This document shows, in pieces, positions 3,664-36,953 of a stretch of 48,560 nucleotides of DNA. Each line of letters starts with the position of its first letter. The first letter of the stretch is position 1. Where the stretch lies: positions 1 through 48,560 of the IMG/VR virus record IMGVR_UViG_3300005253_000639; one strand, 5' to 3'. The position numbers were made by a program, and so were the translations under genes. The notes under the pieces were generated by a model that did no database searches, was not told the DNA's origin, and worked only from the letters and a program-made list of their open reading frames with translations. Origin of the DNA: a virus.

Positions 3664-4631
3664 CAAGTGCAGAATATAAAAGAATATATTCACGTACCCT
3701 GAGAAGCGGTTCAAGAATAACCAGAGATATAATTAAACAACTACAGTTGACTTTTAATGATGCTGCAAGGCTGGCAGCCACGCAGGTAAGAAATGCAGAG
3801 CTTGCGGGCCTATCGGATCTTACAGTACAGTCATGGCGGAATATTCAATTATCACTACAAGAAGGATCTTTAATGATTACAGACCGGCTTGCAGAGTTGT
3901 TGAATAGAAATTTAATAACCGTCGCAAATAAAGTAACAAGTATCGATAGAACATATTTAGTTAATATAATAATAGAAAATAATATCAAGTTAAGTTTATC
4001 AAATATTCAAAATATATTTACAGGCGTCAATCAAAATGTTTTATTAGCAACCTTGAATCGAATATATGCAGACGGATACACGTACAGCCAAAGAATTTGG
4101 AATGTTGGCCTTAACTATCAGGAAAATATTAGAAGACTTATCACATCTGATCTGGCAGTAGGCAGGGACCTTGTACAAACAGCCAGAGATTTAGAAGTAT
4201 ATGTACTTAAGGACCGGGCCGCGGTTGCTCAACGATGGGGGGATTTATTAAAGGGAAATACTGATTGGTTAAGACGGATAGGAAAAGATATTGATTATAA
4301 TGCTTTGAGAGTAATACGATCCGAATTATATGCATCCCTGCAGAGTGCATCGGCTTTAAGCGGGGCAGCAAATCCGGGTGCTTCAGGATGGTATACATGG
4401 ACCCGACAAAATTCTATTGATTGGGGTTGTAACTGTCCGGATAATGCTGCAGGCAGCCCGTACACATTACACGGTTTACCATCGTATGATCATCCTAATT
4501 GTCTATGCATTGTTACGCCGATTTTAAGAAATAGAACTCAATTTGTAAACGATTTAAAGAAATGGTCGAACGGTGGATCGGTTGACTATATTGATTCATG
4601 GTATTATAATTATTATCAATTCGCAGCCTGA
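3660..4631 (+). CDS. Minor head / head morphogenesis protein (Mu gpF-like)
   Basis: A 323-residue protein overlapping the portal gene by ATGA. The N-terminal 220 residues are mostly helical. The C-terminus has the cysteine/histidine signature of Mu gpF and SPP1 gp7 minor head proteins: WGCNCPDNAAG followed by DHPNCLCIVTPIL. Such proteins bind the portal and are carried in the capsid in few copies. Position between portal and protease/scaffold supports the call. Confidence 0.85.
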   Translation: MTSAEYKRIYSRTLRSGSRITRDIIKQLQLTFNDAARLAATQVRNAELAGLSDLTVQSWRNIQLSLQEGSLMITDRLAELLNRNLITVANKVTSIDRTYLVNIIIENNIKLSLSNIQNIFTGVNQNVLLATLNRIYADGYTYSQRIWNVGLNYQENIRRLITSDLAVGRDLVQTARDLEVYVLKDRAAVAQRWGDLLKGNTDWLRRIGKDIDYNALRVIRSELYASLQSASALSGAANPGASGWYTWTRQNSIDWGCNCPDNAAGSPYTLHGLPSYDHPNCLCIVTPILRNRTQFVNDLKKWSNGGSVDYIDSWYYNYYQFAA

Positions 4632-4683: not shown

Positions 4684-5862
4684 ATGCCACCAAAACAACT
4701 AAAAGAAATACAGTCTGGTTATAGATGTTTGAATTATGCTATAGCAGAAATAAATATAAGTCCAGATTCTATACCGAATACAATCCCTGCAGAATATTTA
4801 AAAGAATGGCAAGCAGGAGATCCAGATCCATATTATAAAATACAGATGATAGAATATCCTATTTTATCAAACAGAATAAATTATCAAGAATCATTTTTTA
4901 AATCCTTTATATCTAAATTAAAAGAAAGACCGATCCCGGGAAGTAAAGCGGGCCATAATATGTGGTGGGGAGCCAGACCGGAAACAGATTTTATTATGAT
5001 AGGTGCTAAACTTGAAAGTAATGGAGACGGAACAGGAAAGGTTTATTTTAAAAATTATATTCCGCCAAAAGGCGAAAGCGGCAATAATGAGAATTTTATA
5101 ATTGAAAATAAAACTGACATGGTACATTATTCTCTTGTATCCTGGCCACGAACAGAAAGGTACGAGGACGAAGAAGGGAACGAAATTACAAATGCAATCG
5201 AGTCAATGAAAGGAGAACGAAACGACGCAGTAGAATACGGGCTTGGAGGTATGAAACAAACAACAAATGCAGGAGAAAACGAATATAACAAAGGTCTTAA
5301 CGAACTGAATAAATTAACTATTAATTTACCAGATCTTACAGATAATAAAAGCAAGGGAGAGGGAAACTTGACTAAGGAAGAACTTTTGAAAAAAATCAAT
5401 ACCCTGAGAGAAAACGGCGATCTTACCCTACAGGAAATTGCCGAATCAATGGGCTTGAAAAATCAAGTCGTGAAAAGCGAACATACCGAAGCTTTAAAAA
5501 TTGTTAATGCAATTAAAAAGCTTGGTATGGAAAATCCTATTGAAGATATAAAAGCTTTAAAGGAAATAATCGAATCCGATAAGGAAGCGGTTTTAAATGC
5601 CAGACTTGATAAAGAATTTGGTACAAATCCGGATGCTGAAGATAAAGAAAATTATTTACGGATGCATGCAGGAAACCAGATAGCAAATATAAAAGGAAAG
5701 GATCTTGAAGAAAAAATTGAAAACGTAAAAAAAGATTCAATTACTATTAAATTTGCAAAAGAAAGAGCGGATTACAATGCGGATGTAAATACTATCGGTA
5801 TTGTTGAAACAACCAAAAAGAAAGTACCTGTAAAAACAGGACGCAGAATCGACAAGGTTTAA
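4684..5862 (+). CDS. Prohead protease fused to scaffold domain
   Basis: 392 residues with two parts. Residues 1-160 resemble phage prohead serine proteases: a His in PGSKAGH (H91), then DFIMIGAKLE and GKVYFKNYIP strands, then HYSLVSWPR with the likely nucleophile Ser at 150 or 153. Residues about 229-392 are charged and helical (TKEELLKKINTLRENGDLTL onward), as expected for an internal scaffold that is later cleaved. The order protease/scaffold, decoration, capsid is standard. SD is GGAGGGG, 7 bases from the ATG. An internal start at 5368 may give scaffold alone. Confidence 0.82.
   Translation: MPPKQLKEIQSGYRCLNYAIAEINISPDSIPNTIPAEYLKEWQAGDPDPYYKIQMIEYPILSNRINYQESFFKSFISKLKERPIPGSKAGHNMWWGARPETDFIMIGAKLESNGDGTGKVYFKNYIPPKGESGNNENFIIENKTDMVHYSLVSWPRTERYEDEEGNEITNAIESMKGERNDAVEYGLGGMKQTTNAGENEYNKGLNELNKLTINLPDLTDNKSKGEGNLTKEELLKKINTLRENGDLTLQEIAESMGLKNQVVKSEHTEALKIVNAIKKLGMENPIEDIKALKEIIESDKEAVLNARLDKEFGTNPDAEDKENYLRMHAGNQIANIKGKDLEEKIENVKKDSITIKFAKERADYNADVNTIGIVETTKKKVPVKTGRRIDKV
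5368..5862 (+). CDS. Possible internal in-frame start giving free scaffold protein
   Basis: A TTG codon at 5368, in frame with the protease/scaffold gene (codon 229), is preceded by the purine-rich GGGAGAGGG (5355-5363), a good SD for its distance. The 164-residue product would be the scaffold half alone, as in lambda C/Nu3. The purine run also encodes Lys, Gly and Glu of the full-length protein, so the SD could be chance. Confidence 0.35.
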   Translation: MTKEELLKKINTLRENGDLTLQEIAESMGLKNQVVKSEHTEALKIVNAIKKLGMENPIEDIKALKEIIESDKEAVLNARLDKEFGTNPDAEDKENYLRMHAGNQIANIKGKDLEEKIENVKKDSITIKFAKERADYNADVNTIGIVETTKKKVPVKTGRRIDKV

Positions 5863-7628: not shown

Positions 7629-8345
7629 ATGCAAATAATCACAGTACAATTTAATTATCCGGACAGATCAAATTATAAAATCCTTTTAGATGTATTCAGA
7701 TATTCTTGTCAGAAATATATGCCAAAAGTTAAATTCAATTCAATTTGTATTGAGGCCCCGGAAAATAAAACAGGCCGGGCCCTTAACTTTAATTACAATA
7801 CAATCAAGTTGGAAAAGTGGGTACAGTTTTTAGAATCAACAAAGGATGATAATGTAATATTGGCTGATTGTGATATGATAGCAATAAGATCCGCCGAGCA
7901 TGCTTTTAAATTTGATTTTGATATAGCATATACAGAACGTACCAGGATTAAAAGAATACCCAATAACGGCGGTATTATGTTTGTAAAAGTCAACCACAAG
8001 TCGGTAAACTTTTTTAAGGAAATGCTTAAAATAAATATCAAGATGCTACACGATAGCAGATTCCATCAATTATGGCGGAGTAAATATGCAGGAATGAATC
8101 AAGCCGCTTTTGGATATATGACAGAAACGTATAGGGATAAAATAAATCTACATAAATTTAAGACGATAGAATTTAATGCTGTTGATTGTGACTGGCCGAG
8201 CATAAACGATAAAACCATATTCGTACATTGTAAATCCAAATTAAGAAAAATGATACTGAAGGAAAATCCAGGCCGACCGGAATATAAAAAAGCCGCTACT
8301 TTGTGGTACGGATTACATAAGGAAATGGTAAATAAGAAAAAATAA
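7629..8345 (+). CDS. GT-A-type glycosyltransferase, copy 1
   Basis: 238 residues. A nucleotide-sugar binding N-terminus (MQIITVQFNY) leads to a DxD metal-binding motif, ADCDM (D80 and D82), then IPNNGGIMFVK and YAGMNQAAFGY (about 153-163). The C-terminal IFVHCKSKLRK corresponds to the HxxGxxK-like end of GT8-type enzymes. It is related to the products at 8565 and 11807 in start, DxD, MNQA and HxKxxxR motifs. It probably transfers a sugar from a nucleotide-sugar in the cytoplasm; the acceptor is unknown. First gene of the accessory cassette. Confidence 0.78.
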   Translation: MQIITVQFNYPDRSNYKILLDVFRYSCQKYMPKVKFNSICIEAPENKTGRALNFNYNTIKLEKWVQFLESTKDDNVILADCDMIAIRSAEHAFKFDFDIAYTERTRIKRIPNNGGIMFVKVNHKSVNFFKEMLKINIKMLHDSRFHQLWRSKYAGMNQAAFGYMTETYRDKINLHKFKTIEFNAVDCDWPSINDKTIFVHCKSKLRKMILKENPGRPEYKKAATLWYGLHKEMVNKKK

Positions 8346-8358
8346 AGGAGAAATAGAA

Positions 8359-8556
8359 ATGGAAAAAGGTATATGTGAACATTGCAATTTTTGGATCGAT
8401 AGATATGGATTTAGGGGTGAAGAACTTAGAATTGATGCGGAATGTAGAAAAAACGCACCTAGAAATATAAGAGAAAACGATCCGGAACACAAAAGAATAT
8501 TTCCAGTAACTAATTGTAATGATTTATGTGGAGATTGGGAAAAAATAAAGCAATAG
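8359..8556 (+). CDS. Small Cys-rich protein, zinc-binding type
   Basis: 65 residues with SD AAAGGAG. The pattern CEHCNFW, then ECRKNAPR, then FPVTNCNDLCGDW is typical of a small phage protein family in which four or five cysteines probably bind zinc and the C-terminus ends in CGxW. Role unknown. It sits between two glycosyltransferase genes. Confidence 0.7.
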   Translation: MEKGICEHCNFWIDRYGFRGEELRIDAECRKNAPRNIRENDPEHKRIFPVTNCNDLCGDWEKIKQ

Positions 8557-8564
8557 GTAATAAA

Positions 8565-9236
8565 GTGAAACTAATTACGGTATACTTTGCAAGAAGCAGA
8601 AACTATAAAAACTTTTTAACAGTATGGTTAAAATCTGCAAAAAAAATAATGCCTAATATTGATATAAAAGTAATAAAACCCAAACAGTCAAAATGTATAG
8701 ATCATAAAAGAGATACAGCCATAGCATTTAATGAAGCCGCTTATTATGCCCTTAAAAGCAAAGAGCCGTTAATCATAACCGATGTTGATATGATGTTTAT
8801 GAATCCGGTTGATACAATCCTGGACCGCAAATTTGACATAGCTATAACTGTAAGAAAATACAGAGCAAAATATAATACCGGATTATGGATTTATAAACCA
8901 TCAAAAAGGTCAAGAAAGTTTGTACATAGTTGGATACAAAATACAAAATGGATTGTAGAGAATTTTAATAAGTGTACTGAACTAATTGGTACTCATGGCG
9001 GAATAGATCAAGCTTCGTTATGGATGACAATAAACAAAATACAAAATATAAATATTCTTGAATTGCCCTGTCAGGTATGGAATGCATGTCAAACGGAATG
9101 GGAAAAAGTTGATAGACATACTAAGATAATACACGTAAAATCAAAATTAAGATTAACAGCAACCGGTCGGAATGAAGTACCGGAAAATATGCAATATTTA
9201 AAACCGTTAATAAAAAAATGGAGATCTTATTTATAG
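8565..9236 (+). CDS. GT-A-type glycosyltransferase, copy 2
   Basis: 223 residues from the GTG at 8565. An upstream ATG at 8526 would overlap the previous gene, and only the GTG start aligns with the paralogues (MKLITVYFARSRNYKNF versus MQIITVQFNY and MKIVSVQFDY). DxD motif TDVDM at 73-75, then NTGLWIYKPS, GGIDQASLW and IIHVKSKLR. It is the most divergent of the three copies and may use another sugar or acceptor. Confidence 0.75.
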   Translation: MKLITVYFARSRNYKNFLTVWLKSAKKIMPNIDIKVIKPKQSKCIDHKRDTAIAFNEAAYYALKSKEPLIITDVDMMFMNPVDTILDRKFDIAITVRKYRAKYNTGLWIYKPSKRSRKFVHSWIQNTKWIVENFNKCTELIGTHGGIDQASLWMTINKIQNINILELPCQVWNACQTEWEKVDRHTKIIHVKSKLRLTATGRNEVPENMQYLKPLIKKWRSYL

Positions 9237-9244
9237 GGGGAAAA

Positions 9245-9790
9245 ATGAAAGGACATTGTTATTGGTTAACAGGACTTCCATGTTCAGGGAAAACAACTAT
9301 AATAAATGAGCTCGGAGCAATTTTAAATGGTGCCAGCGTACAGCATCACATTTTAGACGGAGATGTTTTTAGAAAGAATATCACAAACCATTTAAGCTTT
9401 AGCAATGAGGACAGGCGAAGAAATTTGTTAATAGCTGCTAATATAGCTAAAATATTAATACTCCATGATATAATTGTTTTGTGTGCATTTATATCCCCTT
9501 TTGTATCTGTAAGAAAAGAAGTAGAAAAAATCATCGGCGAAGAAAATTACACAGAAATATATATTGAGGCAAGCAGGGAAACTTGTATTAAAAGAGATGT
9601 GAAAGGAATGTGGAAAAAAGCTTTAAACGGAGACCTGCACGCATTTACAGGAGTCGGAAGTGTTTACGAAATGCCACTAAATTCAATAACTATAAATACG
9701 GAAAAGAAAAAAGTTTTTGAATCTGTTTCAGAATTAAAAAAAATAATAGAAGGATCTGGTAAATCGTGGGTTCCAACATATCAAATATAG
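9245..9790 (+). CDS. cysC: Adenylylsulfate (APS) kinase
   Basis: 181 residues, full length for a stand-alone APS kinase. It phosphorylates APS with ATP to PAPS, the universal sulfate donor. Motifs in order: P-loop GLPCSGKT (10-17), LDGDVFR (37-43), FSNEDRRRN (52-60), SPFVSVR (84-90), EIYIEASRETCIKRDVKG (104-121), KKAL then FTG (134-136), YEMP (141-144). Start chosen at 9245 (SD GGGG) rather than the ATG at 9218. No ATP sulfurylase is present, so the host must supply APS. The sulfotransferase at 11235 is the likely PAPS user. Confidence 0.95.
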   Translation: MKGHCYWLTGLPCSGKTTIINELGAILNGASVQHHILDGDVFRKNITNHLSFSNEDRRRNLLIAANIAKILILHDIIVLCAFISPFVSVRKEVEKIIGEENYTEIYIEASRETCIKRDVKGMWKKALNGDLHAFTGVGSVYEMPLNSITINTEKKKVFESVSELKKIIEGSGKSWVPTYQI

Positions 9791-9856
9791 GATGGCATGA
9801 TTACCGAGTGTAAATAAATGTGTGTATGACCCAAGTCTATATTTTAGGGGGTAAGA

Positions 9857-10015
9857 ATGGCGCTCAATAAATGTGAAGTATGTTATAATAATATATACAG
9901 AGAAGATCTTTGTAAAAACTGCAAAGAGCTATTGAAAAAAATGATTAAAAGTAAAACGTTAAAAGATGAATATAGACCACTTATAAACGGGAGTTATTAT
10001 GATAGTACCCGCTGA
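9857..10015 (+). CDS. Zinc-ribbon microprotein
   Basis: 52 residues, SD AGGGGGTAAG. Two CxxC pairs (CEVC at 6-9 and CKNC at 19-22) suggest a one-zinc ribbon; the rest is basic. It overlaps the next gene by 17 bases. Bases 9791-9856 upstream hold no gene. Confidence 0.55.
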   Translation: MALNKCEVCYNNIYREDLCKNCKELLKKMIKSKTLKDEYRPLINGSYYDSTR

Positions 10016-10601
10016 ATGTATAAAATGGATAAATCTTCAAAGAACTAAATATAAAAATCCTATCAATCAATTTAAAGATCAAATACAAAAAGAATATCTT
10101 GAAATGAGAGAATATTTACCGACCAGCGTTGAGTCAATACTCGACATAGGTTGCGGGCTCGCAGGAATAGATATTTTACTTTCAAAGCATTATGGGAAAC
10201 CAGAATTATTCTTAATGGATAATAGTGAAGTAAATGGACAAGTTGTTTATGGATATGATAGACGCCGGTCATTCTATTCTTCATTTGAAGCAACAGAAGC
10301 ACTTCTAAAAGCTAATTATATTGAAAATTATAATCTTATTGATATAAAAGAAAAAAGATTACCGGTCTTTAAAAAAATAGATCTTGTAATATCATTATTA
10401 TCATGTGGTTATCATTACCCTGTTACTGAATATCTGGAATATATAAATACAATATTATCTGAAAATGGAACTTTGATTATTGATATAAGGGAATTGACAG
10501 ATGGTATTGAAGTTGTACAAAAAGTATTTCCGAAAATAAAAGAAATCAGTTATTATAATAAATCAATAAGAATATGTGCGAGGCGAAATGAGAAGAATTA
10601 G
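9999..10601 (+). CDS. Class I SAM-dependent methyltransferase
   Basis: 200 residues. Motif I is SILDIGCGLAGIDIL (46-60); a second acidic strand FLMDNS follows, then DLVISLLSCGYHYP and an NTILSENGTLIIDIRE strand, the normal Rossmann order. Target not readable from sequence. Its place between APS kinase and sulfotransferase suggests a sugar O-methyltransferase in the same pathway. Confidence 0.72.
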   Translation: MIVPAECIKWINLQRTKYKNPINQFKDQIQKEYLEMREYLPTSVESILDIGCGLAGIDILLSKHYGKPELFLMDNSEVNGQVVYGYDRRRSFYSSFEATEALLKANYIENYNLIDIKEKRLPVFKKIDLVISLLSCGYHYPVTEYLEYINTILSENGTLIIDIRELTDGIEVVQKVFPKIKEISYYNKSIRICARRNEKN

Positions 10602-11235
10602 ACGAATGATAGGAAAGCGAAGAAATTTAAATAGACCGGGAGTTAGTTTACCAGAATATTTTAAGTACAAAAAAAGAAAGGGCAGCAAGCGTAAAAGATG
10701 GGATGCTATATTGTCAAGACTGCCTGCTAACATGCCCCTACTTGGTGTCGAGATAGGCATATTAAACGGTAATACGTCACATAGGATATTAAGACAAAGA
10801 CCGTTATTAAAACTTTATATGGTCGATCCCTGGATTTCCCCGGAAGAAGGATCAAGTTATTTTAAAACGGGTGATGATAATGCACGTAAGCCAGCACAAG
10901 AACATGAAAAAGCATATATATTGACATTAAAGAGGGTAGAGTTTGCAGGTGATAGGGCTATGATTATGAGGATGTTTTCACATGAAGCAGAGCAGAAAAT
11001 AGAAGATGGTTTGCTTGATTTTGTTTTTATCGACGGTGATCATTCATATATCGGAGTAAGTAAAGATATAAAATTGTGGCTTCCAAAAATTAAAAAAGGC
11101 GGATGGATCGGCGGCCATGATTATCACCATGAAACAAGACCTAATCTTCAGGGTGTAACAGTTGCTGTTGACGAAGTTTTTGCAAAGAGCAAAATTGAAA
11201 TAGACGATAATCATACTTGGTTTGTGAGAATATAA
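10588..11235 (+). CDS. Class I SAM methyltransferase (Methyltransf_24-like)
   Basis: 215 residues from the ATG at 10588 (GAGG five bases upstream); GTG 10576 and ATG 10606 are alternatives. Very basic N-terminus, then LLGVEIGILNGNTSHRIL (motif I, about 51-68), LYMVDPW (77-82), LDFVFIDGDHSYIGVSKD (143-160) and KGGWIGGHDYH (170-180). These are hallmarks of Methyltransf_24 enzymes, many of which act on sugars. The two methyltransferase genes overlap by 14 bases. Confidence 0.75.
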   Translation: MRRIRRMIGKRRNLNRPGVSLPEYFKYKKRKGSKRKRWDAILSRLPANMPLLGVEIGILNGNTSHRILRQRPLLKLYMVDPWISPEEGSSYFKTGDDNARKPAQEHEKAYILTLKRVEFAGDRAMIMRMFSHEAEQKIEDGLLDFVFIDGDHSYIGVSKDIKLWLPKIKKGGWIGGHDYHHETRPNLQGVTVAVDEVFAKSKIEIDDNHTWFVRI

Positions 11236-11810
11236 TGATAGTAATGATACTTGGAATGTCAAAAAGCGGTACAACACTGGCAGCAAGAACGCTGGATGCT
11301 GCAGGAATAAACTTTAGTCCAGAAAAAAAGCGGGCTGATTATCCTTCCTGCCCTTATGAGAATTTGGAAGGTTGCAGAATATGCATGGAACAGATTGAGA
11401 TAGATAGAAAAAAATCTTTATATTACCCAACTAAAATAAAAGATAGCACAAGAATTGTCTCTTATATAAAAATGAGATCAAAGCAGGATAGAAATTGGGG
11501 GTTTAAATTTCCTTACCTTACTTTTGTATATCATATATGGAAGAAATATTTACCGGAAGACCATATTGCAATAGCATTAAAAAGAACTCTGGAAGGATTA
11601 TTATGGCATTATAGTAAAAAAGGAAAAATAATATTAACGGAAAATAAAAAACAAACAATATTAAACATACAAGAGAAATATAATAACCTTATAGATAATT
11701 ATGGAATACCTGTGATACAATTTGAGGACTTTATTAATAAAGGGCCAATAGTACTAGAAAAAATAATCGGTCGTAAATTGCCAGATGTGAGGGATGGGAA
11801 AAAACATTGA
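11235..11810 (+). CDS. PAPS-dependent sulfotransferase
   Basis: 191 residues, start at a TAATG junction. The N-terminal GMSKSGTTLAARTLD (7-21) is the 5'-phosphosulfate loop that binds PAPS. HIAIALKRTLEGLLWHY (110-126) fits the 3'-phosphate binding element, which normally carries an Arg and a downstream Ser; here Arg is present and the Ser position differs. It would move sulfate from PAPS to a hydroxyl, most likely on the sugar built by the neighbouring glycosyltransferases. It is short for the family, so it may be a minimal version. Confidence 0.78.
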   Translation: MIVMILGMSKSGTTLAARTLDAAGINFSPEKKRADYPSCPYENLEGCRICMEQIEIDRKKSLYYPTKIKDSTRIVSYIKMRSKQDRNWGFKFPYLTFVYHIWKKYLPEDHIAIALKRTLEGLLWHYSKKGKIILTENKKQTILNIQEKYNNLIDNYGIPVIQFEDFINKGPIVLEKIIGRKLPDVRDGKKH

Positions 11811-12613
11811 AAATAGTTAGTGTACAATTTGATTATGGCGGATTACAAAGTTATAAAAAATTATCGCAGGTTTTTGCTTATAGCGTAAAAAAGAATTGTC
11901 CGGATGCAGATTTAGAATTAATAAATGCAAAACCACCAGAAATAAAAAGGAAAATCAGAAGTAAAAGCTTTGCAACTAATACTTTAAAAATAAAATTATG
12001 GCTTAATGCATTAAGAAGTACGACGGACGATGTTGTATTTATGGATTGTGATATGATTGTTCTTAAAGATATATCATCAGCTTTTAAAAATGATTTTGAT
12101 ATTGGATATACGAAAAGAACCGGATCGAGAATTCCTTATAATGGCGGTGTTGTATTTGTTAAAAATACCCCGGAAGCTATAAAGTTTATTGAGCACTGGA
12201 AAGAAATAAACGACAAAATGTATAATGATTATACTTTCCATCATACATATAGAAATAAATACGCAGGAATGAATCAAGCGGCGTTCGGTTATATAATGGA
12301 AACCGGAGGATATAAGACAAAATTAAAAAAGTTTAGTTGTGATATATGGAATGCATGTGTAGAAAATTGGCCGAAAATAAATGATGAAACACGAATTGTA
12401 CATATTAAAGGGGCTTTGCGAAGATCCGTATTGATGAATAGATCAATAGCCGGGTGTAGGTTCAGACGTGCAATAATACTTTGGAGAAATTTAGCAATAG
12501 AAGCAGGATTAATACACGCGCCGAAATTAGATGTTAATACAGCAACGCCAATAACACCCCACCCGCTTATAAGAAAAGTAAGAGGATTAAGAAGATCTCG
12601 AAGAAGGTATTGA
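11807..12613 (+). CDS. GT-A-type glycosyltransferase, copy 3
   Basis: 268 residues from a TTG start in a TTGA overlap. Closest to copy 1: MKIVSVQFDY start, DCDM (80-83), IPYNGGVVFVK, YAGMNQAAFGY and TRIVHIKGALRRS, the last a clear GT8-like HxxG element. It has an extra basic C-terminal tail of about 40 residues (HPLIRKVRGLRRSRRRY) absent from the other copies. Last gene of the cassette; connector genes resume 30 bases later. Confidence 0.78.
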   Translation: MKIVSVQFDYGGLQSYKKLSQVFAYSVKKNCPDADLELINAKPPEIKRKIRSKSFATNTLKIKLWLNALRSTTDDVVFMDCDMIVLKDISSAFKNDFDIGYTKRTGSRIPYNGGVVFVKNTPEAIKFIEHWKEINDKMYNDYTFHHTYRNKYAGMNQAAFGYIMETGGYKTKLKKFSCDIWNACVENWPKINDETRIVHIKGALRRSVLMNRSIAGCRFRRAIILWRNLAIEAGLIHAPKLDVNTATPITPHPLIRKVRGLRRSRRRY

Positions 12614-26962: not shown

Positions 26963-26991
26963 TTGACAGGAAACCTTAAAAAGACTAAATT
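26963..26991 (+). promoter_or_regulatory. Probable early promoter
   Basis: TTGACA (26963-26968) inside AAAACCTTGACA, 17 bases, TAAATT (26986-26991, four of six). It would give a leader of about 220 bases before the gene at 27221. Confidence 0.5.
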
Positions 26992-27220: not shown

Positions 27221-27421
27221 ATGAAAGATAAAATCAGAATTGAAAAGCATTATTATAATCCGAATGATAAAATGGAAGTTATTAACATGAGAGAATTATT
27301 ATTAATTGCTTGTAATAATGGGTATGATGACAGCGTTAATTATCTTATCTACTTGTTAACTGTTAAAGATAAGGTTGTTAATTTTCCAGGCGGATATATT
27401 AAAGCAAGAAATGAATATTAA
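27221..27421 (+). CDS. Small early protein, unknown
   Basis: 66 residues, strong SD AAGGAGAAAAAA. Helical centre (MRELLLIACNNGYDDSVNYL) reminiscent of a single ankyrin-like helix pair; no family recognised. First gene of the early operon. Confidence 0.6.
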   Translation: MKDKIRIEKHYYNPNDKMEVINMRELLLIACNNGYDDSVNYLIYLLTVKDKVVNFPGGYIKARNEY

Positions 27422-27431
27422 GGAGAAAAAA

Positions 27432-27656
27432 ATGAATAGATTAAGCAAAATAAATAATATGGATAAAACTGACAGAGCCTATTGCGCTTTAAATAATTGG
27501 TTTTTATTTCTACAGAAAAATGGCATTACAAGAAAATATCAGAAAGATGTTCTTTGTATTTTATGGGGCCGCGCTACAGAAAATGGCAAAGATACGATTC
27601 AGGCTGATTTTTGGGAAAAGGAATTTTTCACATTAAAAGGATATTCAAAATATTAA
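27432..27656 (+). CDS. Small early protein, unknown; stop codon overlaps tRNA-like element
   Basis: 74 residues from ATG 27432 (SD AAGGAGAAAAAA). Contains ALNNWFLFLQKNGITRKYQK, a helical phage-type segment. The last A of its TAA is the first paired base of the mini-tRNA-like element. Confidence 0.6.
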   Translation: MNRLSKINNMDKTDRAYCALNNWFLFLQKNGITRKYQKDVLCILWGRATENGKDTIQADFWEKEFFTLKGYSKY

Positions 27657-27696
27657 GCTTTCTGGTAGTGGCCAGGTTCAATTCCTGGCAAAGCTA
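27656..27696 (+). ncRNA. Mini-tRNA-like element 1 (no anticodon arm)
   Basis: Acceptor stem AGCTTT/AAAGCT (27656-27661 and 27690-27695, 6 bp), then nine unpaired bases CTGGTAGTG carrying the D-loop-like GGTAG. A T-arm GCCAGG-TTCAATT-CCTGGC (27671-27689) directly abuts the 3' acceptor strand. Acceptor plus T-stem is 12 bp, as in real tRNA, with a TTCAAT-type 7-base loop and a discriminator-like A (27696) followed by TTTT, not CCA. It lacks the anticodon arm and variable loop. A second copy at 28442 keeps the pairing with compensatory changes. Confidence 0.65.
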
Positions 27697-27723
27697 TTTT
27701 AAAATTTTATCAAGGGGTTAAAT

Positions 27724-28191
27724 ATGAATAATTATTTTAAAGATTGTAAAAACTTAAATGAAGCTAAAAAATTGTACCATACATTATTAAAAGAGAATCA
27801 TCCTGACCAGGGTGGCGATACTATAATATGTCAGCAGATAATCGAACAGTTTGAAAACTATATAATATTATTTACAGCTGATATTTTTAGAAAAGATGGA
27901 AATGCAAAATACGAACATTTCTCAGATGATTTTCAGGCTATACTAAATAAGATAATTCATTTTGAAAATATGAAAATTGAAATTATCGGCTATTGGATTT
28001 ACTGTTTTAATTCTTATGAATACAAAGAAGAATTAAAAGCATTCGGATTCTGGTTTTCAAAAAAGCATAGAGCCTGGGTTTTTAGTGGAACATCAAAAAA
28101 GAAAATCCGGTCAAGATTAACAACAAACGATATAAGATCAATTCATGGAGTTGTTGATATTGAAACAGAAAAGTTATTAAAAATAAGTTAA
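27724..28191 (+). CDS. J-domain protein
   Basis: 155 residues. The N-terminus is a short J-domain: AKKLYHTLLKENHPDQGGD with HPD at 26-28. The rest is a separate domain (MKIEIIGYWIYCFNSYEYKE, then FGFWFSKKHRAWVFSG) found in small phage and plasmid DnaJ-like proteins. It probably recruits host DnaK to a phage complex, perhaps replication. SD AAGGGG is perfectly matched by small RNA 2. Confidence 0.75.
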   Translation: MNNYFKDCKNLNEAKKLYHTLLKENHPDQGGDTIICQQIIEQFENYIILFTADIFRKDGNAKYEHFSDDFQAILNKIIHFENMKIEIIGYWIYCFNSYEYKEELKAFGFWFSKKHRAWVFSGTSKKKIRSRLTTNDIRSIHGVVDIETEKLLKIS

Positions 28192-28199
28192 TATAAATC

Positions 28200-28219
28200 G
28201 GGCCCGGGTATCCGGGTCC
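28200..28219 (+). terminator. GC-rich hairpin after the J-domain gene
   Basis: GGGCCCGG (28200-28207), GTAT loop, CCGGGTCC (28212-28219), 8 bp with one G-U. Only TAATATTTT follows, so it may be a weak terminator or an mRNA-stabilising hairpin. Confidence 0.5.
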
Positions 28220-28241
28220 TAATATTTTAAGGGGGAATAAG

Positions 28242-28442
28242 ATGAAAACATTAGTAGTATTAGAAGGCAATTGCAACGGCGAAGGACAACAGTTTAAAGA
28301 ATGGTTGGAAAAGAATCTACCAGAAGATATTCAATTAGTCTATAGAGATAATTGCTCTGGTGTAGGTGGAGGATTATTCGATGAGGATTTTATGCCTATA
28401 GAGGATGATAATGATTTTTGGTCACAGTATTGTAATAGTTAA
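28242..28442 (+). CDS. Small acidic early protein; stop codon overlaps tRNA-like element
   Basis: 66 residues, SD AAGGGGGAA. Starts KTLVVLEGNCNGEGQQFKEW and is rich in Asp, Glu and Gly. No family recognised. As with the gene at 27432, the final A of the stop begins a mini-tRNA-like element. Confidence 0.55.
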   Translation: MKTLVVLEGNCNGEGQQFKEWLEKNLPEDIQLVYRDNCSGVGGGLFDEDFMPIEDDNDFWSQYCNS

Positions 28443-28483
28443 GCCTGCAGGTAGACAGCCGGGTCCGACTCCCGGCAAGGCTA
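28442..28483 (+). ncRNA. Mini-tRNA-like element 2 (no anticodon arm)
   Basis: Acceptor AGCCT/AGGCT (28442-28446 and 28478-28482), unpaired GCAGGTAGACA with the GGTAG motif, T-arm GCCGGG-TCCGACT-CCCGGC (28458-28476), discriminator-like A at 28483, then TTT. Compared with element 1, the pair T59-A92 is replaced by C45-G79 and A74-T86 by G61-C73 (last two digits of the positions), so pairing is kept while sequence changed. No anticodon arm, no CCA. Confidence 0.65.
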
Positions 28484-28512
28484 TTTGAAATAAAATTAGA
28501 AGGAGAATGAAT

Positions 28513-28893
28513 ATGTCAGCATGGCTAGAACATAAAGAAACTTGCAAGTATTGCGGTACAGTTAAAATTAAAAATAAATTCACTTATGCTTATGATGGGC
28601 ATCCGGAACAGAAGATAATAAGAGAGTATTGTTGGGAATGTAAGCAATCATTTATAGGTACAAGACAAAAAGTTATTAGATACGGAGATATTCCAAAATC
28701 AGGATTTTCATATAATTACCGAGAAAACCGAAATGAAATAGGGATATCTTGTTATTTGCAAAATATGAGACCAAGGCCAGAATTTACAAAAGGAAGGAAA
28801 AAAATAGTTTTTTCAGCAATAATAATTGATTATGGTGGAGACGATGAACCGTTAATCGATATGAAAACAATTAGAATAAGGAGTATAAAATGA
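28513..28893 (+). CDS. Zinc-ribbon early protein
   Basis: 126 residues from ATG 28513, placed 7 bases after AAGGAG; ATG 28507 is too close. CKYCG near the start and CWECKQSF about 28 residues later form a zinc ribbon. The rest has beta-strands ending KIVFSAIIIDYGGDDEPL. Role unknown. Confidence 0.6.
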   Translation: MSAWLEHKETCKYCGTVKIKNKFTYAYDGHPEQKIIREYCWECKQSFIGTRQKVIRYGDIPKSGFSYNYRENRNEIGISCYLQNMRPRPEFTKGRKKIVFSAIIIDYGGDDEPLIDMKTIRIRSIK

Positions 28894-29495: not shown

Positions 29496-29524
29496 TTGAC
29501 ACGATTTAATATTTATAATAAAAT
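29496..29524 (+). promoter_or_regulatory. Strong promoter for the recombination genes
   Basis: TTGACA (29496-29501), 17 bases, TAAAAT (29519-29524). It includes AAAACCTTGACACGATTTA, nearly repeated at 34810. Drives the genes from 29554 including ERF and exonuclease. Confidence 0.8.
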
Positions 29525-34805: not shown

Positions 34806-34815
34806 TAATAAAACC

Positions 34816-34844
34816 TTGACACGATTTATTATTAATATTATGAT
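34816..34844 (+). promoter_or_regulatory. Strong promoter, near-copy of the one at 29496
   Basis: TTGACA (34816-34821), 17 bases, TATGAT (34839-34844). The same 12-mer AAAACCTTGACA plus CGATTTA as at 29490, and even the leaders match (GATGATTTA then AGGGGG). Confidence 0.8.
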
Positions 34845-36578: not shown

Positions 36579-36756
36579 ATGGATAAGCGTAAAAGAGAGA
36601 TTGCCGGAAAAAAAAGATTTATATTTAGTAATATGTGATTGGCCTGGTACAGAAGCTGTTAGAGCAATATCAGATTATTCAAAGGGATCTGGATTTGCAG
36701 CAAGATACGTCAGTTATTGGCAGCCATATCCAGATCCACCGGAGGTAATTAAATGA
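36571..36756 (+). CDS. DUF551-like protein
   Basis: 61 residues: EWISVKERLPEKKDLYLVIC at the start and VSYWQPYPDPPE at the end, the WxSVxxRLPE and WxPxPxPP signature of DUF551. Common in phages, function unknown. Confidence 0.8.
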   Translation: MSEWISVKERLPEKKDLYLVICDWPGTEAVRAISDYSKGSGFAARYVSYWQPYPDPPEVIK

Positions 36757-36953
36757 GTGAGCTTAAAAGAATTGTCAGTTTATTAAATAAAATATCTGAA
36801 TTGGAAAAATATAAAAAGATGTGGGAAAATTTTTGGAGGGATTTTGATATTGTGTACGATTTGTTATCATTTCAGAAGAAATATTTAGGCCCGCGGTTTA
36901 GAGAGCAATTGTTATATAGAAAAAATATAATTGAAAAGGAGGCAGAAGAATGA
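36753..36953 (+). CDS. Mosaic small protein with YKKxW module
   Basis: 66 residues, ATGA overlap. LEKYKKMWENFW is shared with the products at 32567 and 37255. It ends IIEKEAEE, whose codons hold the SD AAGGAGG that small RNA 1 matches. Confidence 0.5.
   Translation: MSELKRIVSLLNKISELEKYKKMWENFWRDFDIVYDLLSFQKKYLGPRFREQLLYRKNIIEKEAEE

Follow-up and report, generated by a model that had tools for sequence, protein, structure and literature searches.

Putative anticodon-less tRNA-like elements at stop codons in a phage gene block, and a possible wider class of reduced phage tRNA genes

The presence of tRNA-like genes in phages has long called for an explanation. The tRNA-like domain of tmRNA combines an acceptor stem and a T-arm with a D-loop that has no D-stem, and it has no anticodon arm. 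Hairpins that join an acceptor stem to a T-arm are cut by RNase P, with the T-loop setting the site of cleavage, and G19, G53 and A58 matter for recognition by the enzyme (PMC11143913). Host RNase P also cuts phage RNAs that are not tRNAs, such as phi80 M3 RNA, the P1/P7 C4 antisense RNA and the T4 gene 32 mRNA (PMC11143913). By mimicking the tRNA elbow, mascRNA and menRNA likewise recruit RNase P and RNase Z, which cut them; the two RNAs are not aminoacylated (PMC11693755). A search of the open-access literature, with subscription journals and preprint servers mostly outside its scope, returned no description of anticodon-armless tRNA-like elements in phages; the claim of a preliminary description of the present locus, that no element of exactly this type has been described, holds within that literature.

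The window, meaning the whole stretch of DNA analysed, comprises the 48,560 bases of an IMG/VR virus record and belongs to a tailed phage, with genes for a terminase, a tape measure protein, a replisome organizer and an Erf-like protein. Within it, ARAGORN finds no tRNA gene, and no Rfam family reaches its gathering score. No closely matching phage record was found; a search with the Erf gene gave no close relatives, and one with the terminase gave only a record of 100% identity that ends before E1, the first of the two elements considered here. A plus-strand gene block begins at 27221, and E1 and E2 occupy two of its first gaps (Table 1), which measure 67 and 64 nt, respectively, most subsequent gaps being 16 nt or shorter. 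Longer later gaps measure 62, 114 and 45 nt, and a TTGACA promoter-like sequence is found in two of these longer gaps. A near-identical promoter-like stretch, CCTTGACACGATTTA..., is common to two gene gaps (29496-29524 and 34814-34842), which suggests a repeated early promoter. The gap between those of E1 and E2 holds a hairpin that is terminator-like and not tRNA-like. Elsewhere in the window, past the head genes, a cassette at 7629-12613 contains an APS kinase gene (9218-9787, E 1e-41), two Pfam-supported glycosyltransferase-like genes, a methyltransferase domain and a gene that is sulfotransferase-like by eye only (11217-11807); its role is possibly virion glycan modification. A virus record 99.9% identical to the window (L124) has an extra 97-nt segment, absent from the window, with a degenerate full-length tRNA (ARAGORN tRNA-???, 5643-5715); the difference (L124 5634-5720 compared with window 4618-4627) lies directly after the gene that ends at window position 4631.

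Table 1. Coordinates of the two mini-tRNA-like elements, their parts and the surrounding features in the window
Feature	Position	Strand	Remarks
Sigma-70-like promoter candidate	26963-26991	+	Upstream of gene block; consensus match only
Small gene upstream of E1	27432-27656	+	74 aa; no family
E1, mini-tRNA-like element	27656-27696	+	41 nt; AGCTTT-CT-GGTAG-TG-GCCAGG-TTCAATT-CCTGGC-AAAGCT-A; sequence, descriptor, model R1 (19.5 bits)
E1 acceptor 5' strand	27656-27661	+	AGCTTT; pairs with 27690-27695
E1 GGTAG	27664-27668	+	D-loop-like (G18G19)
E1 T-arm	27671-27689	+	GCCAGG-TTCAATT-CCTGGC
E1 acceptor 3' strand	27690-27696	+	AAAGCT plus discriminator-like A
Gene downstream of E1	27724-28191	+	155 aa; PHROG 15863, function unknown
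Plain 8-bp GC-rich hairpin	28200-28219	+	GGGCCCGG-GTAT-CCGGGTCC, then TAATATTTT; gap between E1 and E2 gaps
Small gene upstream of E2	28242-28442	+	66 aa; no family
E2, mini-tRNA-like element	28442-28483	+	42 nt; AGCCT-GCA-GGTAG-ACA-GCCGGG-TCCGACT-CCCGGC-A-AGGCT-A; sequence, model R1 (20.6 bits)
E2 acceptor 5' strand	28442-28446	+	AGCCT; pairs with 28478-28482
E2 GGTAG	28450-28454	+	
E2 T-arm	28458-28476	+	GCCGGG-TCCGACT-CCCGGC
Gene downstream of E2	28507-28893	+	128 aa; no family

Reading of the sequence bore out the positions and boundaries that the preliminary description had given, together with the start of each element at the final A of the TAA that ends its upstream gene, the ends in A followed by TTT, the 7-base T-loops, and two changes between the copies that keep pairing (T-A to C-G in the acceptor, A-T to G-C in the T-stem). 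Both T-arms have a perfect 6-bp stem and a 7-nt loop. The loop of E1 fits the T-loop consensus and that of E2 deviates at position 55, where C replaces T, with T54, C56, A58 and T60 kept in both despite the loop changes. The 12 bp of acceptor plus T stem that had been ascribed to both fit E1 only (6+6 bp); E2 has five potential acceptor pairs and six T-stem pairs, with a 1-nt offset. Only 9-11 nt lead from the acceptor strand to the T-arm, with no cloverleaf anticodon arm, and C74 and CCA are absent from both elements.

E1 and E2 are real and exceed chance. E1 and E2 account for two of the only three T-arm-like 17-mers in the whole window, and a descriptor of GGTAG, T-arm and closing stem finds no element in 400 dinucleotide-preserving shuffles. 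A covariance model, R1, trained on 14 elements from other phages with E1 and E2 left out, gives just two significant matches in the window, E2 (E 2e-4) and E1 (E 6e-4); the next match has E 1.1. The two elements thus match a model made solely from anticodon-armless tRNA-like elements of other phages. R1 places E2 in another 5' (acceptor) register, and its signal therefore mostly confirms the T-arm. Neither element is detected by RF00005 or ARAGORN; the best sub-threshold full-length Rfam match of E1 is mascRNA-menRNA, at a non-significant 14.6 bits (E 8.2, cut-off 42.5).

The preliminary description would have been refuted by a lack of further covarying homologues; instead, other phages have elements that share the structure and differ in the sequence of the stems. 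A first pattern (GGTAG, 6-bp T-stem and T-loop), scanned over 2.9 million contigs, gave four viral loci; three of these, without a tRNA in the vicinity, also have an acceptor-like stem that the pattern did not ask for, and L005, among these four, was rejected as a full tRNA-Lys. Matches to a looser GGTAG pattern were left uncounted, most of them being full tRNAs in which GGTAG lies close to the T-arm. A second pattern, in which 7-14 nt separate the 3' half of a D-arm from a T-arm core downstream, gave at least 119 loci. Among the 90 distinct matches listed, the lower T-stem is paired, which completes the T-stem, in 78 (10.8 expected) and a long acceptor stem is present in 46 (about one with 3' flanks swapped). 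These elements have an acceptor, a D-arm and a T-arm, and 8-11 nt stand where the anticodon arm would be; many of them reach 43-53 bits with the Rfam tRNA model (RF00005), aligned as tRNAs from which that arm is deleted. By a descriptor search, fetched loci totalling 2.38 Mb contain 94 distinct elements, a minority of them inside full tRNAs, and the reversed and block-shuffled control sequences contain none; a slightly larger set, with the elements inside full tRNAs removed, comprises 86. At least 63 non-redundant members, from unrelated phages, have D-arm, T-arm and acceptor stem and no anticodon arm. Among bases that the pattern and pairing tests left free, G1 (30/63, 48%), A73 (36/63, 57%), C74 (33/63, 52%) and A76 (51%) are all enriched in these 63, and C75, at only 19%, is not. 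The 3' end of the class reads A73-C74-N-A76, unlike that of full phage tRNAs from the same loci, and CCA is encoded by 5/63 members (8%) compared with 370/768 full phage tRNAs (48%). Annotation programs miss such elements or label them undetermined tRNAs. Anticodon-armless tRNA genes may form a large, so far unrecognised class in phages, serving as portable processing signals or decoys and not in translation, in which the acceptor-to-elbow fold is kept and the CCA end is weakened, with E1 and E2, which are also without a D-stem, as the most reduced form. To this overall reading we would give close to an even chance.

Forms like E1 and E2, with a lone GG and no D-stem, occur elsewhere (L003, L004, L023, L032, L148, L231 and L260). 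That of L003 adjoins a gene of 420 aa and ends one base ahead of the next start codon, and that of L004 encodes CCA; L237 may be a plain long hairpin and no mini-tRNA. In a structure-guided alignment of 25 lone-GG elements, 95.7% of cells are paired, with many pair types, compared with 55.6% when shuffled and 28-48% when slid, the first figure being inflated by the choice of members on pairing. Where GG was not part of the search motif, it is present in 29 of 32 linkers compared with 21.7 in shuffles, a weak signal in which one family makes up a third. The 180-kb record behind L141, G004, has 16 significant matches to R1, a model to which its own family contributed; they cluster mostly within 2 kb where long genes are few, and a small hairpin follows several of them. 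The corresponding array (L141 10700-12890, minus strand; G004 72586-74615) consists of at least twelve distinct mini-tRNA-like units of 44-50 nt, whose stems differ by compensating changes, and includes no full tRNA; there are more copies near 60 and 64 kb.

Members are also found in named phages. Lactococcus P335-group phages (bIL309 36732-36791, ul36 207-266 and others) carry a 60-nt member between the lysin and the prophage end or integrase, where it stands alone behind a promoter-like sequence, without a next gene to separate. The elements of bIL309 and ul36 are 97% identical, and their 150-nt flanks on either side are about 50% identical. As a cassette (bIL309, L277; ul36, L278; D4840, L279), this member is 94-97% identical amid mostly unrelated neighbouring sequence, a pattern that suggests strong selection or module exchange. 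Polaribacter phage Danklef_1 has a member that is annotated as tRNA-OTHER, Undet and lies 14 nt ahead of a gene; Alteromonas PT15-A5 has one member, and the E. coli jumbo phage EJP2 has a candidate whose stem is imperfect. In a Streptococcus porci prophage, an anticodon-armless tRNA starts 3 nt past GOLLD RNA, an order that resembles that of MALAT1 and mascRNA (loci with GOLLD and an anticodon-armless tRNA: L292 3426-3875 and L341 1501-1950). This adjacency is one distinct case; in the other GOLLD-bearing record of 50, the two are about 9 kb apart. GOLLD is known near tRNAs or with tRNAs inside it (PMC12286853, PMC6582537). In 84,980 bacterial and archaeal genomes, a strict pattern gave 57 loci only, and a separate search of the bacterial genomes for exact relatives of E1 and E2 gave none. 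Many of the 57 have a different, Bacteroidota structure (L294, L299-L302, L304, L307, L312, L313, L327, L336 and similar), with a D-arm, a T-arm and no anticodon arm, in which closed hairpins on both sides replace the acceptor stem; these units are apparently chained and occur in Spirosoma, Larkinella, Chitinophagaceae and Flammeovirgaceae.

The start inside a stop codon, which the preliminary description had treated as distinctive, is shared with ordinary tRNA genes: 24 of 68 mini-elements lie within 10 nt of an upstream stop codon, compared with 66 of 218 full phage tRNAs (p = 0.46). The overlap was thus ruled out as a special signal, and starting at a stop codon is a property of compact phage genomes. 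No conserved neighbour gene of the class was found among 30 upstream and 30 downstream proteins.

E1 and E2 may be reduced, anticodon-less tRNA-like modules for RNase P and tRNA processing inside an early phage mRNA, a reading that is plausible, although we would stop short of giving it an even chance. The transcribed T-loop/GG elbow and the stacked acceptor/T helix would be recognised by host RNase P, an enzyme that can do without the anticodon arm and that would cut the 5' side of the element at or beside the stop codon, and tRNA 3' processing would take off the other side. The cuts would separate the mRNAs of the neighbouring genes and release a mini-tRNA-like RNA of 41-42 nt. More speculatively, a terminating ribosome could choose between folds, because the stop codon contains the start of the acceptor 5' strand, for which a GGUAG/CUAUU stem is the competitor. 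Processing by RNase P and RNase Z would fit the parts retained in E1 and E2, which stand as two diverged copies between co-directional genes and have independent look-alikes in other phages. In the D-arm class, G1, A73, C74 and the pairing of the acceptor and lower T-stem are tRNA-like, as processing would have it, and a weakened CCA with A73 and C74 kept would fit a processing signal that does not become a usable tRNA. The diversity of neighbouring genes is expected of a generic signal. Against processing, an RNase P cut ahead of the first A of the acceptor would destroy the stop codon, and the lone lactococcal elements, having no next gene, indicate that punctuation in cis is not the role of the whole class. 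The lack of C74 and CCA in E1 and E2 also counts against it, as does the predicted energy of the E2 acceptor, which bears on the main rival for these two elements, a plain hairpin.

In the predicted minimum-energy fold of both elements, the T-arm proposed by the preliminary description is retained and the acceptor stem is not, as GGUAG pairs instead with CUAUU (27664-27669 with 27693-27698 in E1; 28448-28454 with 28481-28487 in E2). The tRNA-like fold is put at -14.4 kcal/mol compared with -14.6 kcal/mol for the competing fold in E1, and at -16.3 compared with -18.7 kcal/mol in E2, where it is thus disfavoured by 2.4 kcal/mol. Acceptor pairing probabilities are about 0.25 (E1) and 0.04 (E2), compared with a median of 0.94 in full phage tRNAs, 8% of which fall below 0.1; among class members, the predicted fold includes the acceptor stem in 73 of 86, E1 being borderline and E2 not included. 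The energy model ignores the contact between D-loop and T-loop, and the excised 41-42-nt forms are predicted to fold tRNA-like, so a tRNA-like form of E1 and E2 is possible. The competing stem nevertheless favours the notion that E1 and E2 are ordinary intercistronic hairpins (GGUAG...T-arm...CUAUU) that slow exonucleases or weakly terminate, their tRNA look being due to ancestry or accident, and so do the modest folding z-scores (-1.9 for E1, -1.6 for E2) and the plain terminator-like hairpin in the intervening gap, which likewise follows a stop codon. That hairpin is flagged as terminator-like (GC-rich stem plus T run), whereas E1 and E2 are not. A hairpin has no need of a T-loop consensus, yet the four conserved loop bases are kept; furthermore, the acceptor change keeps tRNA-like pairing, and GGUAG/CUAUU has no covariation. 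The hairpin explanation is unlikely, though it deserves serious weight.

For the class as a whole, the main rival to processing in cis is that released mini-tRNAs act in trans as decoys that occupy a host factor with affinity for the tRNA acceptor or elbow, with tRNA-directed defence, stress or modification enzymes as candidates. The absence of an anticodon arm would make such RNAs insensitive to anticodon nucleases (compare PMC10264068). The lactococcal members, conserved between divergent flanks and placed alone behind promoter-like sequence, are consistent with this role, as are the copies in G004, at least 16 in number, mostly tandem and outside long genes. The class has no shared neighbour gene and no acceptor identity in common, however, and E1 and E2 lie inside an operon without evidence of a promoter of their own. 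Decoys are a rather improbable account.

It is less probable still that the elements are relics of tRNA genes that lost their anticodon and D arms and were kept by chance. They do occupy genome positions like those of tRNA genes, and the degenerate tRNA of L124, which the window is without, indicates that tRNA-like pieces are gained and lost in this lineage. Chance retention is at odds with stems that remain paired as their sequence changes, with the conservation of the lactococcal element and not of its flanks, and with the persistence of two parallel copies in one compact genome. Remnants of attachment sites in host tRNA genes are very improbable: tRNA fragments are common at prophage ends (PMC9897764), but such remnants are 3' halves without a matching 5' strand, one per element, whereas the window has two copies, E1 and E2, both internal and each with a 5' strand that matches, and the mini-element of bIL309 lies outside the 29-bp att repeat.

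The elements keep the part of a tRNA that is read by the processing enzymes and lose the part that decodes; they therefore cannot serve translation, and thereby separate the tRNA as adaptor from the tRNA as handle. If RNase P cuts them, phages would have a tRNA punctuation system like those of animal mitochondria and MALAT1, and the class is open to test in cultivable phages such as the lactococcal P335 group and Polaribacter Danklef.

Among known systems, canonical tRNA genes (RF00005) have the anticodon arm that the D-arm class is without, and encode CCA far more often. Unlike tmRNA, E1 and E2 have no mRNA-like tag domain and are far too short, and ARAGORN and Rfam give no tmRNA match. The RNase P model substrates AT1 and pMini3bp have an acceptor stacked on a T-stem, a T-loop and no anticodon arm, as would the tRNA-like form of E1 and E2 (PMC11143913), but they are engineered, with a continuous 12-bp helix and an encoded CCA, whereas E1 and E2 have a linker of 9-11 nt and no CCA. 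mascRNA and menRNA (RF01684) differ in belonging to eukaryotic long noncoding RNAs and in keeping a reduced D-arm and an anticodon-like stem; like the putative tRNA-like form of E1 and E2, they are tRNA-like structures in a longer transcript, with an acceptor stem, a T-arm and two D-loop guanines that form the elbow (PMC11693755). The phage class, apparently undescribed, may be a variant of tRNA-like RNase P substrates.
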